From: Isoptericola jiangsuensis
GTDB taxonomy: Bacteria > Actinomycetota > Actinomycetes > Actinomycetales > Cellulomonadaceae
Assembly: GCF_002563715.1 (NCBI RefSeq)
Contig: NZ_PDJJ01000001.1
Span: 1,302,001 to 1,366,000, forward strand
Direction of reading: 5' to 3'
Length of the DNA stretch: 64,000 nt
Shown here piece by piece: positions 31,605-45,772 of this stretch. The notes below the pieces were generated by a model. The model did no database searches. It saw only the letters and a list, made by a program, of their open reading frames with translations, and was not told the DNA's origin. Numbering within the stretch: position 1 is the first letter of the stretch; every line of letters begins with the position of its first letter. A program made the position numbers and the translations under genes.

Positions 31605-33881
31605 ATGCGACGAACACGGCAGTCCGTTGTCCTTGCCCGCACGGTCGCGGCCACCGCCGCCGCGACCCTCCTGCTCACCACCGCGGCCGCCGGGGTCGCG
31701 GCCGCCGCCCCGGCCACCGGTCGCGGGCACGACCCGCACGATCCCGGGCGCTCCGGCACCCGGGTGGTCCCCGTCCTGGAGGGCCGCGCCACCCTGAGCG
31801 CGGACTTCCTCGCCGACGGCCCGCCGTCGGGCGCCCGGGCCTCCGCCGCCAACGGTCGCCAGGGCCCCTGGGACGGCCAGGTCGTCCCCGGGTTCTCCGC
31901 CATGGTCGACAACGGCGACGGCACGTTCTGGGCGCAGCCCGACAACGGCTTCGGCGCGAAGGGCAACAGCGCCGACTTCCTCCTGCGCAACTACCTCGTG
32001 CGGCCCGACTGGGACACCGGTACGCGCGGCTCGGGCGAGATCGAGATCCTCGACCGCATCGACTACGACGACGCCGACCACGTGCTCGACTTCCCGATCG
32101 TGCACGAGGACACCGAGCAGCGGCTGCTCACCGGCGCCGACTTCGACGTCGAGTCCGTGGTGCGGGCGAAGGACGGCACGTTCTGGGTGGGGGAGGAGTT
32201 CGGGCCGTACGTGCTGCACTTCGACGCGACCGGCACCCTGATGTCCGCGCCCGTCGCGCTGCCCGACGGCCTGAAGTCCCCACAGAACCCCACCCTCGCC
32301 GCCGGCGAGACAGCCCGCGTGCGCGCCAGCGGCGGCTTCGAGGCGATGAGCGCCTCGCCCGACGGCCGCTACCTCTACCCGGTCGTGGAGAACGGGCTCG
32401 TCGGCGACGACGAGCGGCGTCGGGTCGTGTTCGAGCTCGACACCCGCCGTGGCGAGTACACGGGTCGCACCTGGAGCTACCAGGTGGACGCCCCCGGGAA
32501 CCTCGTGGCCGACGCGTTCACGGTCGGCAAGGGCCGCTTCTGGATGGTGGAGCGGGACAACGCCGACGGCGCCGCGTCGGTGACCAAGCGGGTGTACGAG
32601 GTCGACCTGCGCCGCACCGACGCCGAGGGCCACCTGCGCAAGGAGCTGGTCCTCGACGCGCTGAAGATCGCCAACCCCCGCGGGATCGACGCGGGCGAGG
32701 GCTACGGCCTCGGCGAGACCTACGCGCTGCCCGTGCAGTCCTTCGAGACCGTCCTGCGGCTGCGCGACGGCCGCGTCCTGATCGGCAACGACAACAACTA
32801 CCCCGGCAACGACGCCCGCGTCCCGGGCACGCCGGACGACACCGAGATGGTCGTCGTCGACCTGCGTCGCGAGCGGGTCCGCGACGACGGCGTCACCGTC
32901 GTGGGGCACCGCGGCGCGTCGGGCGACCGGCCCGAGCACACGCTGGCCTCCTACGAGCAGGCGATCCTGCAGTGCGCCGACTACATCGAGCCCGACGTCG
33001 TCGCCACGAAGGACGGCGTGCTCGTGGCCCGGCACGAGAACGAGATCGGTGGCACCACCGACGTCGCCGACCGGCCCGAGTTCGCCGACCGCCGCACCAC
33101 CAAGCAGATCGACGGCCGTGCCGTCACCGGATGGTTCACCGAGGACTTCACGCTCGCCGAGCTGCGCACCCTGCGGGCCGTCGAGCGCCTGCCGCAGCTG
33201 CGACCGGCGAGCGCCGCCTTCGACGGTCTCTACCAGGTGCCGACCCTCGACGAGGTGATGGACCTGGCGCGCCGCTCGGTGACGTGCGACGGGGACCAGG
33301 TGGGCGTCTACCCGGAGACGAAGCACCCGACGTACTTCGACTCCGTCGGGCTGTCCCTGGAGGAGCCGCTCGTGGCGGCGCTGCAGGCGAACGGGCTGGA
33401 CTCGCGGCGCGCCCCGGTGATCCTGCAGTCGTTCGAGACGGGCAACCTGCGCGAGCTCGACCGGATGACCCACGTGCGGATCGCGCAGCTGGTCTCGGCG
33501 AGCGGCGCACCGTACGACCTGGAGGCCGCCGGGTCGCCGGTCACGTACGCGGACCTGCTGACCGCGCGGGGCCTGCGGGACGTCGCCCGGTACGCCGACG
33601 GTCTCGGCGCGGTGAAGGACGTGCTGGTGCCGCGGCGCGCGGACGGCACGCTGGGCACCCCGACGTCCGTGGTCCGGGACGCGCACCGCGCCGGGCTCGA
33701 CGTGCACGCGTGGACGTTCCGGGCGGAGAACACGTTCCTGCCCGCGGACCTGCGCACCTCGGCCGACCCGGCCGCGCACGGCGACCTCGCGGCGGAGATC
33801 GAGGTGTTCCTCGACGCGGGCGTCGACGGGATCTTCACCGACCAGCCGGCCGTCGCGGCCGGGCTCCTGGGCCGCGACTGA
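31605..33881 (+). CDS. Secreted phytase-like esterase fused to a glycerophosphodiester phosphodiesterase
   Basis: A 758-residue exported protein. A basic N-terminus and hydrophobic segment ending AAAAPA (about residue 36) form a signal peptide without a lipobox Cys. Residues 60-430 form an esterase-like phytase domain with WAQPDNGFG, WVGEEFGPYVLHF, GGFEAMSASPDGRYLY and IGNDNNYPGNDAR. Residues 430-755 are a GDPD domain with HRGASGDRPEHT (His435), EPDVV (Glu462, Asp464), His477, a PETKHP substrate segment and GIFTDQP at the end. It probably releases phosphate and glycerol-3-phosphate from extracellular phosphodiesters. It stands alone, followed by a strong terminator. Confidence 0.88.
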   Translation: MRRTRQSVVLARTVAATAAATLLLTTAAAGVAAAAPATGRGHDPHDPGRSGTRVVPVLEGRATLSADFLADGPPSGARASAANGRQGPWDGQVVPGFSAMVDNGDGTFWAQPDNGFGAKGNSADFLLRNYLVRPDWDTGTRGSGEIEILDRIDYDDADHVLDFPIVHEDTEQRLLTGADFDVESVVRAKDGTFWVGEEFGPYVLHFDATGTLMSAPVALPDGLKSPQNPTLAAGETARVRASGGFEAMSASPDGRYLYPVVENGLVGDDERRRVVFELDTRRGEYTGRTWSYQVDAPGNLVADAFTVGKGRFWMVERDNADGAASVTKRVYEVDLRRTDAEGHLRKELVLDALKIANPRGIDAGEGYGLGETYALPVQSFETVLRLRDGRVLIGNDNNYPGNDARVPGTPDDTEMVVVDLRRERVRDDGVTVVGHRGASGDRPEHTLASYEQAILQCADYIEPDVVATKDGVLVARHENEIGGTTDVADRPEFADRRTTKQIDGRAVTGWFTEDFTLAELRTLRAVERLPQLRPASAAFDGLYQVPTLDEVMDLARRSVTCDGDQVGVYPETKHPTYFDSVGLSLEEPLVAALQANGLDSRRAPVILQSFETGNLRELDRMTHVRIAQLVSASGAPYDLEAAGSPVTYADLLTARGLRDVARYADGLGAVKDVLVPRRADGTLGTPTSVVRDAHRAGLDVHAWTFRAENTFLPADLRTSADPAAHGDLAAEIEVFLDAGVDGIFTDQPAVAAGLLGRD

Positions 33882-36253: not shown

Positions 36254-36868
36254 GTGATCCTCCTCGCCGGGTTCGGCCTCGGGCTGTCCCTCATCGTCGC
36301 CATCGGCGCCCAGAACGCCTTCGTCCTGCGCCAGGGCGTGCGCCGCGAGCACGTCGGCGTCGTCGTCGCCGTCTGCGCGCTCAGCGATGCCGTGCTCTAC
36401 TCCCTCGGCGGCGCCGGCCTCGGCGTCCTCGTCGAGGCGCACCCCGGGTTCGTCACCGCCGCCCGGTACGCCGGGGCCGCCGTCGTCCTCGGCTACGGCG
36501 CGCTCGCCGCCCGCCGGGCCCTGCGCGGCGGCGAGGAGCTCGTCGCCACCGCCGACACCAGCGTCCCCGACGCCGGCCGCCGCCTGCGCCCCGTCCTGCT
36601 CACCGCGCTCGCCCTCACCTGGCTCAACCCCCACGTCTACCTCGACACCGTCGTCCTCCAGGGCGCCGTCGCCGCCTCCTACGGCGACGACCGCTGGTGG
36701 TTCACCGCCGGCGCCGTGGCGTCCAGCCTCGTCTGGTTCGTCGCCCTCGGGTACGGCGCCCGCCTCGCCGCGCCCCTGCTCGCCCGCCCCGGTGCGTGGC
36801 GCGTCGTCGACGGCGTCATCGCGGTCGTCATGCTCGCCGTCGCGGCGTCCCTCGTCGCCGGCGCCTGA
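36254..36868 (+). CDS. LysE/ArgO family basic amino acid exporter
   Basis: A 204-residue inner-membrane exporter with about six helices. The family N-terminus GLSLIVAIGAQNAFVLRQGV is diagnostic, as is the central LLTALALTWLNPHVYLDTVVL motif around helix 4. The GTG start is placed by the -10 box. Divergence from a LysG-type regulator makes lysine or arginine export the best assignment. Confidence 0.94.
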   Translation: MILLAGFGLGLSLIVAIGAQNAFVLRQGVRREHVGVVVAVCALSDAVLYSLGGAGLGVLVEAHPGFVTAARYAGAAVVLGYGALAARRALRGGEELVATADTSVPDAGRRLRPVLLTALALTWLNPHVYLDTVVLQGAVAASYGDDRWWFTAGAVASSLVWFVALGYGARLAAPLLARPGAWRVVDGVIAVVMLAVAASLVAGA

Positions 36869-36893: not shown

Positions 36894-36990
36894 GCGTGAG
36901 TCAGCGCGGCTCGGCGCGACTCAGCGTGAAATCCGTTCACTCAGCGCTCGAGATCGCGAGTCAGCGCTCGATGGCGTGAGTCAGCGCGAG
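36894..36990. repeat. Tandem array A: GASTCAGCG motif at 20-bp period, five copies
   Basis: TCAGCG begins at 36901, 36921, 36941, 36961 and 36981, exactly 20 bp apart. Each is preceded by GAG, GAC or CAC to form GASTCAGCG-like units. The bases between motifs vary. The last copy supplies the stop codon of the convergent aminotransferase gene. Adjacent C- and G-centred copies can pair into short hairpins. The motif is the reverse complement of the one in the array near 44,400. Confidence 0.85.
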
Positions 36991-38186
36991 CCGGCGAGCG
37001 TGGCGAGCCGCCCGACGGCGTCCTGAAGGACCTCCGGCCGCTTGACGAACGTGAACCGCACCCGCGACGCGAAGGCGTCCGCCGCCGTCGACCCGGGGCG
37101 GCAGAACGCCGACACCGGTACGCCGACCACCCCCGCGAGGTCGGGCAGCCGGCGGCACAGGTCGTGACCGTCGGCGAACCCCAGCGGGGCGCCGTCCGCC
37201 ACGACGAAGTACGTCCCCTGCGGCACGACGACGTCGAACCCTGCGGCCCGCAGCCCGTCGCACAGCAGGTCCCGGCGGGCCGCCAGCGACGCGGCGAGCT
37301 CGCGCGGCACGTCGTCGTCGGCCAGCGCCCGGGCGATGGCGGGCTGGAACGGCGAGCCCGAGGCGTACGTGACGAACTGCTTGACGGTGCGGATCGCCGT
37401 GACGAGCTCGGCCGGTCCGTGGACCCAGCCGACCTTCCAGCCGGTGAGGCTGAACGTCTTGCCCGCCGACGACACCGTGAGCGTGCGCCCCGCCATCCCG
37501 GGCAGCGTCGCGACGGGCACGTGGCGGGCGTCGTCGAACACCAGGTGCTCATACACCTCGTCGGTGACGACGACGGCATCACGCTCGCGGGCGACGGCGG
37601 CGACGTGCTCCAGCTCGGCGCGGGTGAGCACGGTGCCCGTCGGGTTGTGGGGTGTGTCGACCAGGATCATCGCGGTGCGGTCGCTCGCGGCGGCGCGCAG
37701 GGCGGCGACGTCGAGCCGCAGGTCGGCGGTGAGCGGCACCGGGACGTGGGTCGCGCCGGCCATCGCGATCGCCGCGGCGTGCGAGTCGTAGAACGGTTCG
37801 AGGGTGATGACCTCGTCGCCCGGGCCGACCAGGGCGAGCACGGCGGCGGTGAGGGCCTCGGTGGCGCCGGTGGTGACGAGGACCTCGGTGTCCGGGTCGA
37901 CGTCGAGGCCGTAGTGGCGGTGCTGGTGGGCGGCGACGGCGGCCCGCAGCTCGGGCACCCCGTCGCCCGGGGCGTACTGGTTGCGGCCCGCGTCGATGGC
38001 GTCCTTCGCGGCGGCCTTGACCCAGTCGGGGCCGTCGACGTCGGGGAACCCCTGGCCGAGGTTGATCGCGCCCGTGGAGGCCGCGAGCGTGGTCATCTCC
38101 GCGAAGATCGTGCGGGCCACGGTGCCGTCGGCGGCGAGCAGGCCGGTCGCCGCCGCGACCGCGCGCCAGCGGGGGGTCGTCGTCAT
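36981..38186 (-). CDS. PLP-dependent aminotransferase, DapC-like (class I/II)
   Basis: A 401-residue fold-type I aminotransferase. Visible are INLGQGFPDVDGP near the N-terminus, VDTPHNPTGTV, and the Schiff-base lysine in SSAGKTFSLTGWKVGW (Lys243). The phosphate-binding region and the C-terminal Arg for the substrate carboxylate (RVRFTFVKR) are also present. The sequence resembles N-succinyldiaminopimelate aminotransferases of Actinobacteria (DapC), and also kynurenine or methionine aminotransferases. The nearby lysine exporter makes a lysine-pathway role attractive but not proven. Its stop codon is part of the repeat array downstream. Confidence 0.85.
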   Translation of the reverse strand: MTTTPRWRAVAAATGLLAADGTVARTIFAEMTTLAASTGAINLGQGFPDVDGPDWVKAAAKDAIDAGRNQYAPGDGVPELRAAVAAHQHRHYGLDVDPDTEVLVTTGATEALTAAVLALVGPGDEVITLEPFYDSHAAAIAMAGATHVPVPLTADLRLDVAALRAAASDRTAMILVDTPHNPTGTVLTRAELEHVAAVARERDAVVVTDEVYEHLVFDDARHVPVATLPGMAGRTLTVSSAGKTFSLTGWKVGWVHGPAELVTAIRTVKQFVTYASGSPFQPAIARALADDDVPRELAASLAARRDLLCDGLRAAGFDVVVPQGTYFVVADGAPLGFADGHDLCRRLPDLAGVVGVPVSAFCRPGSTAADAFASRVRFTFVKRPEVLQDAVGRLATLAGSR

Positions 38187-43213: not shown

Positions 43214-44323
43214 GTGGCCACCATCGACTTCCCCGCCGAGATCAAGGCGCTTCGCAGCACCCTCGAGTCCATCGAGGCTGTGAGCGACCCCACCGCCCTC
43301 CAGGCGAAGATCGCGGACCTGTCGGAGCAGGCCGCCGCCCCCGACCTGTGGGACGACCCCGAGCAGGGGCAGAAGGTCACGTCCGCGCTGTCCTCGGCGC
43401 AGGCCGAGCTCGACCGCGTCAAGAAGCTCTCGCAGCGCATCGACGACGTCGAGACCCTCGTCGAGCTCGGGAACGAGATGGAGGACGCGGACTCCCTCAC
43501 CGAGGCCGAGGCCGACGTCGCCGCGATCCGCAAGGACCTCGACGCCCTCGAGGTGCGCACCCTGCTCAGCGGCGAGTACGACGCCCGCGAGGCCGTCGTC
43601 ACGATCCGCGCCGGCGCGGGCGGTGTCGACGCCGCCGACTTCGCCGAGATGCTCATGCGCATGTACCTGCGCTGGGCGGAGCGCCACGGCTACCCGACCA
43701 AGGTCATGGACACGTCCTACGCCGAGGAGGCCGGGCTCAAGTCCGCGACCTTCGAGGTCAACACGCCCTACGCCTTCGGCAACCTCTCCGTCGAGGCCGG
43801 CACGCACCGCCTCGTGCGCATCTCGCCGTTCGACAACCAGGGTCGCCGCCAGACGTCGTTCGCCGCCGTCGAGGTCGTCCCGCTCATCGAGCAGACCGAC
43901 AGCATCGAGATCCCCGAGTCCGAGCTGAAGATCGACGTCTTCCGCTCCTCCGGCCCCGGCGGCCAGTCGGTCAACACGACCGACTCCGCCGTCCGCATGA
44001 CGCACATCCCCACGGGCACCGTCGTGTCGATGCAGAACGAGAAGTCGCAGATCCAGAACCGCGCCGCCGCGCTGCGCGTCATGCAGTCCCGCCTGCTGCT
44101 CATCCGCCAGCAGGAGGAGGCCGCGAAGAAGAAGGAGCTCGCCGGCGACATCAAGGCGAGCTGGGGCGACCAGATGCGGTCCTACGTGCTGCAGCCCTAC
44201 CAGATGGTCAAGGACCTGCGCACCGAGCACGAGTCCGGCAACACGCAGGCCGTGTTCGACGGCGCCATCGACGACTTCATCGAGGCCGGCATCCGCTGGC
44301 GTCGCTCCGGCGGCAACGACTGA
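43214..44323 (+). CDS. prfB: Peptide chain release factor 2
   Basis: A 369-residue factor terminating translation at UGA and UAA. The stop-codon tripeptide SPF is at residues 204-206 and the catalytic GGQ at 249-251, whose Gln is normally methylated. The frame is continuous from the GTG start, so there is no programmed +1 frameshift. It stands before ftsE-ftsX and smpB, an order also found in mycobacteria, but is separated from them by a repeat array. Confidence 0.97.
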
Positions 44324-44731
44324 CGTCGGCTCCGTCCCGAACCCTCTCCGGCCCTGGCCGATCGCGTCGGCGCCCAGCTCCAGCGCTGAGTCGCACGGTC
44401 GTGTGCTGACTCGCGTGGCGCTTCGCTGACTCGCGCGATCCGACGCTGAGTCACCGGGAAGTGCGCTGACTCGCGGGACGCCGCGCTGACGCGCGCGATC
44501 CGACGCTGAGTCACCGGGAAGTGCGCTGACTCGCGGGACGCCGCGCTGACGCGCGCGATCCGACGCTGAGTCACCGGGAAGTGCGCTGACTCGTGCGGGT
44601 CTGACGGGTGTCCCGGGCAACCGACGAACCCGTGGCGCCCCGGCGTGTCGTCCGCCGGGCGCCGGTGACGTGCGTGCGACGCTCGAACTCGGCAGGCGCC
44701 CCGACCGGTGCAGGCCGGGAAGGGGCACGCC
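44324..44731. other. 408-bp intergenic region holding the second repeat array
   Basis: No plus-strand gene is supported. Just over half of the region is the 20-bp-period array described separately. Reading frames through it encode repeated peptides only because the 60-bp higher-order unit is a multiple of three. Between 44600 and 44731 is the ftsE leader, with GGAAGGGG as ribosome site. I see no convincing terminator for prfB apart from hairpins the array itself could form. Confidence 0.7.
44381..44597. repeat. Tandem array B: GCTGASTC motif at 20-bp period, eleven copies, with a 60-bp higher-order unit
   Basis: GCTGA begins at 44385 and then every 20 bp up to 44585. The blocks 44461-44520 and 44521-44580 are identical over 60 bp, and 44401-44460 is a diverged version. 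Within a 60-bp unit the three motifs read GCTGACTC, GCTGACGC and GCTGAGTC. G-centred and C-centred copies can pair. It is the same motif as array A in the opposite orientation. Confidence 0.92.
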
Positions 44732-45772
44732 GTGATCCGTTTCGAGAACGTCTCGAAGGTCTACGAGCGCGGGGCACGTCCGGCGCTCGACGACGTCTCG
44801 GTCGACGTCGAGCGGGGCGAGTTCGTGTTCCTCGTCGGCGCGTCCGGGTCGGGCAAGTCGACGTTCCTGCGGTTGGTGCTGCGCGAGGAGCGTCCGACGG
44901 GTGGCCGCGTGTACGTGGCGGGCCGCGACCTGACACGGTTGTCGTCGTGGCGGGTGCCGGGGCTGCGGCGGGGCATCGGGATGGTGTTCCAGGACTTCCG
45001 GCTGCTGCCGAACAAGTCGGTGTACGAGAACGTCGCGTTCGCGCTGCAGGTCATCGGCAAGCCGCGCCACGTCATCCGCAGCACGGTGCCGGAGGTGCTG
45101 GAGTGGGTGGGCCTGGACGGCAAGGAGAAGCGGCGGCCGCACGAGCTGTCGGGCGGTGAGCAGCAGCGGGTCGCGATCGCGCGCGCGTTCGTCAACCGGC
45201 CGCCGATCCTGCTGGCGGACGAGCCGACGGGCAACCTGGACCCGACGACGTCGCTGGGCATCATGCGGCTGCTGGACCGCATCAACCGGACGGGCACCAC
45301 GGTGGTGATGGCGACGCACGACGACGAGATCGTCAACGAGATGCGGCGTCGTGTCGTGGAGCTGTCCACGGGTCACGTGGTGCGCGACGAGGCGGAGGCG
45401 GCCTACGGGCGCCGCGAGGAGATCCTGCCGGCGGTCGGTCCGGCGCCGGGGCTGGACGCCCCGGGCCGCGGGGTACCGACACCGCGCATCACGGTGCAGC
45501 CCGAGCCGGGCGACGTGGCGGCCGAGCGGGCGGCGCGGGTCGCCGCCGCGCACGGCGTGTTCGAGGACGTGCCCGCGGCGGATCCGGAGCCCGAGCCGCT
45601 GCCGTCGCGACGCACGCGCGGCGGGGCGTCCGCGTACCGGTCCGCCGGTCCCGACGACCTCGACGTGGAGCCCGACGACGCACACGGCCCCGACGAGCGG
45701 GCGGACGGTCCCGACGAGCGGTCGCTGCGGCACGAGATGTCCGGTGCCGCGCACGGGCGACGGGAGGACTGA
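44732..45772 (+). CDS. ftsE: Cell division ATP-binding protein FtsE with extended C-terminal tail
   Basis: A 346-residue ATPase of the FtsEX complex that activates wall hydrolases during division. The core (1-230) is standard: [14 protein letters not shown], Walker [10 protein letters not shown] (36-44), signature [14 protein letters not shown], Walker B ILLADEP, and the switch His in [15 protein letters not shown]. Residues 232-346 are an unusual acidic, Pro/Arg-rich, low-complexity tail. GTG with GGAAGGGG upstream is chosen because family members begin MIRFENV. ftsX follows two bases later. Confidence 0.94.

Follow-up and report, generated by a model that had tools for sequence, protein, structure and literature searches.

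The stretch of Isoptericola jiangsuensis DNA analyzed here (64,000 nucleotides; the window) carries two members of a genome-wide family of intergenic arrays, in which an asymmetric word of about 13 bp is repeated head to tail at an exact 20-bp pitch. The family has a constrained spacing, lies at the 3' ends of genes, partly conserves its positions between species and is spelled in a lineage-specific manner. We propose, with a probability of about 0.4, that the arrays are head-to-tail sites for a putative DNA-binding protein and would act as orientation-independent transcription stops or insulators at gene ends.

Arrays of the window

The two arrays and the genes around them are as follows.

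43214..44323, plus strand: prfB, release factor 2 (TIGR00020, above the NCBIfam cut-off)
44385..44592, plus strand: array 1, eleven head-to-tail units at an exact 20-bp pitch, nine exact GCTGASTC and two GCTGACGC
44432..44593, plus strand: 60-bp higher-order repeat within array 1, an exact lag-60 match over 102 bases from 44432 (TRF period 60)
44708..45772, plus strand: ftsE (TIGR02673, above the NCBIfam cut-off), start as called
36254..36868, plus strand: LysE-like exporter, to the left of array 2 (top NCBIfam score 186.7 bits, under the cut-off of 213.65)
36898..36985, minus strand: array 2, with four exact motifs at spacings of 20/40/20 and weaker units among them
36981..38186, minus strand: PLP-dependent aminotransferase, to the right of array 2 (top NCBIfam score 550.3 bits, slightly under the cut-off of 553)

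Array 1 starts 62 bp after the stop of prfB, and the true start of ftsE may be a GTG near 44734. As a preliminary description of this DNA had stated, the eleven-unit lattice runs without drift; nine units are exact, and those at 44485 and 44545 have one mismatch each to GCTGASTC. The two identical 60-bp blocks and the diverged third block of that description are also present: the blocks from 44444 and 44504 agree at 60/60 positions and the next 30 bases at 30/30, and the block from 44384 matches the later ones at 49/60. Growth by 60-bp units, which it had read from these blocks, holds for array 1, but units of other lengths are found in some other arrays. Both C- and G-centred copies occur, but they do not quite alternate as described; the centres follow the order G-C-C, repeated every 60 bp.

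Lattices of eleven 20-bp steps in 200 simulated order-1 Markov windows, read on both strands, never held more than one motif, so a chance origin of array 1 is rejected. GCTGASTC occurs 14 times in the window against 6.87 expected, and 13 of these copies lie within arrays 1 and 2. Array 2, absent from the preliminary finding, occupies a convergent gap and reaches with its last motif into the end of the minus-strand gene.

A genome-wide family with a fixed pitch

G000, the single-contig genome of 4.04 Mb to which the window belongs, contains 396 GCTGASTC-N12-GCTGASTC pairs, 194 forward and 202 reverse, compared to 18 forward and 35 reverse for the pattern read backwards. Array loci were mapped over 3.64 Mb, giving 39 below 2.84 Mb and 23 in the 2.84-3.64 Mb tile (62 in total), and the last 0.4 Mb (3.64-4.04 Mb) adds 102 further pairs. 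The unit consensus is CTGCGCTGASTCGCGGGAAC, with about 13 informative positions, and the site itself is asymmetric, approximately 13 bp long (GCGCTGASTCGCG) and arranged head to tail on one or both strands.

Among 307 same-strand neighbour motifs no more than 60 bp apart in sampled G000, 298 are separated by 20, 40 or 60 bp, the remainder comprising four at 10 bp and five at other distances. Motif-free matching of 7-mers in the gaps of tiles from G000 and two further species (G116 and G141) gave a peak at lag 20 alone, with 7.4-11.8 matches per kb, compared to at most 1.5 per kb at other lags; the array-free genome G072, scored on gaps without N runs, gave 0.2 per kb at lag 20. A word recurring three times at lag 20 was found in 10 gaps of G000a, 10 of G116, 12 of G141 and none of G072, and other lags from 15 to 25 gave at most 1 per gap class in this three-fold test.

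The spacers are much more variable: 134 of 266 adjacent spacer pairs have no more than four of the eight central bases in common. Mean spacer identity is 0.59 between neighbours versus 0.44 between arrays in G000, and 0.64 versus 0.39 in G141. In G116 it is 0.42 for neighbours (lag 1), 0.46 for other arrays and 0.66 for second neighbours (lag 2), a 40-bp alternation that departs from the 60-bp growth of array 1. These features support the earlier suggestion of a lineage-specific intergenic repeat that keeps its motif and spacing as its spacers vary.

Such units could instead belong to a selfish or neutral short repeat family, spreading and expanding by copying or recombination. We consider this doubtful, but it is the main rival and stands close behind a DNA-level boundary. 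The fixed pitch might then stem from the copying of whole 20-, 40- or 60-bp units, a tentative explanation favoured by the exact duplication of 40- and 60-bp units and by the fast change of array copy number. It is opposed by the divergence of the spacers, across which the spacing is almost unchanged.

Where a plus-strand array meets a minus-strand array in G000, the motif starts lie 10 bp apart at four of six junctions. The junctions at 374552, 566491, 798708 and 3451648 are near-perfect palindromes in which the half-pitch phase is kept. At 33691-33728, next to what we take to be an inositol-phosphate-synthase-like gene, motifs are also set 10 bp apart, half the normal pitch.

Placement at the 3' ends of genes

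Placement was scored on contiguous tiles of G000 (1.15 Mb), G116 (0.4 Mb) and G141 (0.4 Mb), with genes called by a simple purpose-built codon model and an array defined as at least two exact motifs. Across the tiles of these three species, arrays occupy 24 of 273 convergent, 29 of 1104 tandem and none of 274 divergent gaps. The preliminary description had set random spacing in other genomes, or arrays inside conserved coding sequence, against a shared binding or termination role; the spacing proved non-random, and the midpoint lies between genes for 81 of the 82 tile arrays and inside a called gene for one. A coding repeat is therefore rejected. The avoidance of divergent gaps is strong but not absolute, since 5 of 87 arrays were scored in such gaps in a set of segments partly picked for having arrays.

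The motif sometimes provides the stop codon of the gene, as GC-TGA-CTC or, in G141, as CGAGG-TAG, and genes adjoining arrays include prfB, citrate synthase, sdhB, ettA and valS. In convergent gaps, 33 of 43 arrays run against the nearest gene. In tandem gaps, 17 run with the genes and 21 against them, and this even orientation is more easily reconciled with an element acting at the DNA level than with a one-way signal in RNA.

REP/BIME elements of the GTAG and CGTC super-families are described as intergenic, near 3' ends and in convergent and unidirectional gaps, and the excerpted account reports this 3'-end placement without proof of a terminator role (PMC3733652). The arrays lie in gaps of these same types. 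They further resemble REP/BIME in their many copies, intergenic position at 3' ends, lineage-specific sequence and paired orientations (PMC3733652). The same placement of REPs (PMC3733652) lends some weight to a selfish repeat, whose units might be allowed to persist at 3' ends and be purged from promoters and genes, although we hold this to be rather unlikely. Unlike REP/BIME, the arrays are direct repeats of a non-palindromic 13-bp word at an exact 20-bp pitch, without Y1_Tnp. The consensus CTGCGCTGASTCGCGGGAAC is not a palindrome beyond GASTC, and a profile search with PF01797 (Y1 transposase, RAYT) found no match in the 18 genomes of the genus, with 5 of 14 control genomes positive. RAYT-driven REPs are not supported on these two grounds, and the absence of RAYT from the 18 genomes also counts against a selfish repeat more generally.

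Similar to the arrays, the TAACTGA repeats of Beggiatoaceae form many intergenic direct-repeat sets of a fixed short word (PMC4679880). They are heptamers, which in the Guaymas genome are reported mostly just before start codons (PMC4679880), whereas the arrays consist of 20-bp units at 3' ends and have dialects. Placement of the TAACTGA type, just upstream of start codons, was not seen in the tiles, where the arrays follow stop codons and the 274 divergent gaps are free of them. For Isoptericola sp. AK164, the genome report counts 566 tandem repeats, 521 of them minisatellites (PMC10425560). Among the matches listed in the literature search, mostly titles and abstract openings, we recognised no published account of these arrays.

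Each lineage has its own spelling

Arrays of the general type are present in 14 of the 18 genus genomes, most of which have the core CTACCTCG in place of CTGACTCG. The general pattern, with three copies of CTNNCTCG at 20-bp spacing, was scored as positive at four or more matches, with controls giving 0-2; it is positive in 27 of 221 family genomes in all, and no match was found in G021, G072, G127 and G132. G090 has 119 matches, but 22 control matches too. Of the 18 genus genomes, only the two G000 and G116 are rich in the GCTGASTC form, and G094 carries a single GCTGASTC pair per strand. Other genera have their own words, such as CTATCTCG (G090) and CTTGCTCG (G052), and the flanking bases are species-specific (GCCTACCTCG, AACTACCTCG, TACTACCTCG, TTCTACCTCG and GCGCTACCTCG).

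The prfB-ftsE gap is readable in 14 genomes, and seven of these have arrays there, five of them spelled otherwise than in the window: CTACCTCG in G042, G137, G141 and G156, and CCTGACTCG in G094. In a single-gene tree built from prfB of 17 genomes, G094 groups with G058 (97/94), which requires the CTGACTCG spelling to have arisen twice. The word is almost wholly replaced between G000 and G141. Intergenic G000 has 233 GCTGASTC (179 GCTGACTC and 54 GCTGAGTC) versus 2 GCTACCTC, and intergenic G141 has 47 GCTACCTC versus 4 GCTGASTC (GCTGACTC and GCTGAGTC twice each). Were the family a selfish repeat, the dialect of a lineage might simply be that of its last spreader, a possible but weaker account, with which the gain and loss of arrays between species and their absence from 4 of the 18 genus genomes agree.

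A DNA-uptake word, or a chromosome-organizing site for gyrase, condensin or a nucleoid protein, is an improbable explanation of the family. The arrays recall the DUS of Neisseriaceae in having dialects around a common core, inverted pairs at terminators and gene ends, and a stop codon within the word (PMC3630211); on the other hand, fixed-pitch arrays do not appear in the excerpted description of DUS (PMC3630211). The window's dialect is neither enriched nor depleted in genes: GCTGACTC occurs twice inside G000 genes against 3.9 expected by codon shuffle, and a DUS is not supported on this count. CTACCTCG exceeds the shuffle inside genes (118 versus 84 in G000, 37 versus 29 in G116 and 64 versus 38 in G141), but it does so even in species not using it as their dialect, which also argues against an uptake word. 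In favour of an organizing site, array loci are scarce near the expected terminus of G000 (dnaA at 57 kb), where the interval of 1.6-2.4 Mb holds 2 of the 62 loci mapped up to 3.64 Mb, but this scarcity may merely follow conserved operons.

Arrays occupy many of the same gaps after the word has changed

Orthologous gaps were compared under a relaxed definition of an array, at least two units with no more than two mismatches in 11 each. G000 and G116 have arrays in eight common gaps, with one and none unique and 210 empty (p 8e-14); seven is safer than eight, because the G000 gap at 1475621 has only two weak units beside a plain hairpin. G000 and G141, with a median protein identity of 79%, have five common gaps, three unique to each and 129 empty (p 7e-6), and G116 and G141 have five common, two and four unique and 151 empty (p 3e-6). 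The control motif used with this relaxed definition gives no independent comparison, as a mere two bases separate the two dialects.

A strict definition gives fewer common gaps. The common, unique, unique and empty gaps are 4/4/1/210 for G000-G116, 2/5/4/129 for G000-G141 and 2/3/5/152 for G116-G141, so that G000 shares 4 of 8 array positions with G116 and 2 of 7 with G141. Arrays are gained and lost between species. Their stay at orthologous gaps after the change of word speaks against a selfish repeat. G116 and G141 carry arrays on both strands in an orthologous convergent gap where G000 has a plain GC hairpin.

Hairpins and transcription ends

The preliminary description had suggested that array 1 pairs as hairpins in RNA, a suggestion that the folding results do not sustain. 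Compared to shuffled sequences, the sense fold of array 1 has z values of -0.61 and -0.63, and that of array 2, in the sense of the array, -1.30. The window arrays therefore lack the stable transcript hairpin expected of an intrinsic terminator. The antisense of array 1 folds somewhat better than shuffles, at z -2.45, and array 1 as DNA at z -1.49. Similar to intrinsic hairpin terminators, the arrays occupy gene ends and are exchanged for a hairpin at one orthologous convergent gap, but array 1 differs in having no sense-strand hairpin beyond shuffles.

High-GC actinomycetes are generally poor in classical U-tailed terminators. Stems of at least 10 bp are present in 82 of 121 convergent gaps without arrays versus 7 of 24 with arrays (array masked; p 0.0009), a comparison in which 8 of the 24 have no room outside the array and were counted as without a stem; for the 16 testable array gaps alone, the figure is 7/16 (p 0.09). 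Arrays seem to replace hairpins in convergent gaps. No hairpin difference was found in tandem gaps (10/28 with arrays, 147/529 without; p 0.39), and the G072 orthologues of array gaps showed no significant hairpin excess (3/5 versus 4/14 for the convergent gaps of G000, p 0.31). Altogether, the hairpin-poor array gaps and a sense fold no better than shuffles favour a DNA-level, protein-bound and orientation-independent boundary.

An RNA-level terminator or 3'-UTR element, in which inverted arrays would form long hairpins and end transcription or protect 3' ends, appears unlikely. One-directional arrays such as those of the window would, still on this unlikely account, be decayed or derived forms. 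It agrees with the placement at gene ends, with the presence of a hairpin and of arrays at one convergent gap in different species, and with the strong hairpins of six outgroup elements (z -6.9 to -15.4) and of part of the inverted array at prfB in G141 (z -5.45). Against it, sense-direction folds of the window arrays are much like those of shuffles, tandem gaps have no orientation preference, and RNA pairing needs no exact pitch.

Proposed function of the arrays

We propose that a putative sequence-specific DNA-binding protein lines up along the array, one protomer per 20 bp. The protein-bound array would halt RNA polymerase, or insulate against it, from either side, and a polymerase blocked in this manner would keep one transcription unit from running into the next. 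For array 1, its sequence and setting are consistent with the protein-binding array or transcription barrier proposed in the preliminary description. An actinomycete precedent is BldC, described as polymerizing asymmetrically, head to tail, on direct repeats (PMC5859096); its sites differ from the arrays in being AT-rich promoter sites (AATTXXXX(C)) with a much shorter repeat (PMC5859096).

If the specificity of the protein shifted and the sites of the genome followed, each lineage would acquire its own spelling at the same gene ends, and such co-evolution would be the cause of the word turnover. It is conceivable, though we put it no higher, that the putative protein polymerizes into phased head-to-tail filaments along the 20-bp arrays where transcription units end, and that its word has been respecified wholesale. 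Two central bases would then have changed (AC, GA, AT, TG) in separate lineages and taken hundreds of sites along, a step we likewise regard as speculative. If true, bacteria would have their own equivalent of the satellite or hotspot systems that evolve fast, and a class of boundary between transcription units that does without hairpins.

The arrays, which sit at the ends of housekeeping genes, bear on the question of transcription termination in high-GC actinomycetes. With its natural dialect, each species supplies matched and mismatched arrays with which to fish out a candidate binding protein. The dialects also let one ask how a whole set of sites is respelled while many of its places stay.

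Related elements outside the genus

The pattern CTACCTCG-N11..13-CTACCTCG has a match in 59 of 396 genomes of the order, and the strongest outside the genus are G023 (33), G043 (32), G361, of another family (28), G093 (10), G248 (6) and G427 (6). Their form is a four-site module of two CGAGGTAG followed by two CTACCTCG at a pitch of 19 bp; of nine outgroup loci read, three have four exact sites, five have one weakened site and one is without the module. The genus arrays may descend from this four-site hairpin module, stretched into phased arrays. As the outgroup forms make strong RNA hairpins, they may have an RNA role. A related inverted pattern, which misses one-directional arrays, has matches in 13 of 396 genomes drawn from the phylum, with a single match in each of the 12 other than G000.

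A blastn search with the arrays against plasmids and phages gave no match, which counts against a selfish repeat. In viral contigs, the three-copy pattern occurs in 13 stretches, 12 of them with one match, and the four-site module was not found. Phage or plasmid cargo is not supported, given the lack of blastn matches and of the module in viral contigs.

A scan of named genomes for three GCTGASTC copies returned 24 stretches, most with one match. The exception is the Firmicute Bacillus fonticola (NZ_CP052135.1), with 20-bp arrays that contain GCTGAGTC in the unit GCTGAGTCTGCGYATTYCYC. They comprise 50 pairs (control 0) in three long loci at 1151065-1151632, 1791576-1792063 and 2420630-2420757, and are probably independent of the genus arrays. 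The same scan picked up, in Pseudoalteromonas luteoviolacea, a roughly 20-bp minisatellite that includes GAGTCAGC and whose spacers are almost identical.

A second repeated hairpin element

A second repeat, found outside the window, is a long hairpin whose core, GAAGTGGAGGGCCCCCTGGGGCCCGTGAA, is conserved, whereas its arms differ from locus to locus yet keep pairing. Over 26 arm positions in 24 copies, 95% are paired, with several pair types at most positions. There are 29 copies in G000 and 25 in G116, and the element is present in 30 of 220 family genomes. Its positions include at least 1292453, 1292758, 2854991, 3280334, 3325685, 3428885, 3429336, 3496087 and 3496541 in G000, 1165393 and 1412166 in G116, and 1047417 in G141. 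An Rfam search at the gathering score of six 20-kb loci with the hairpin gave no match there. In the G000, G116 and G141 tiles, 13 of 19 copies (up to seven mismatches) lie within 75 bp of an array.

In three genomes of genus g7, the core occurs as an opposed pair 25.7-27.0 kb apart, as if bracketing one region: C1:3522493 and 3548177 in G117, C35:174628 and 201588 in G006, and C1:90655 and 117055 in G111.
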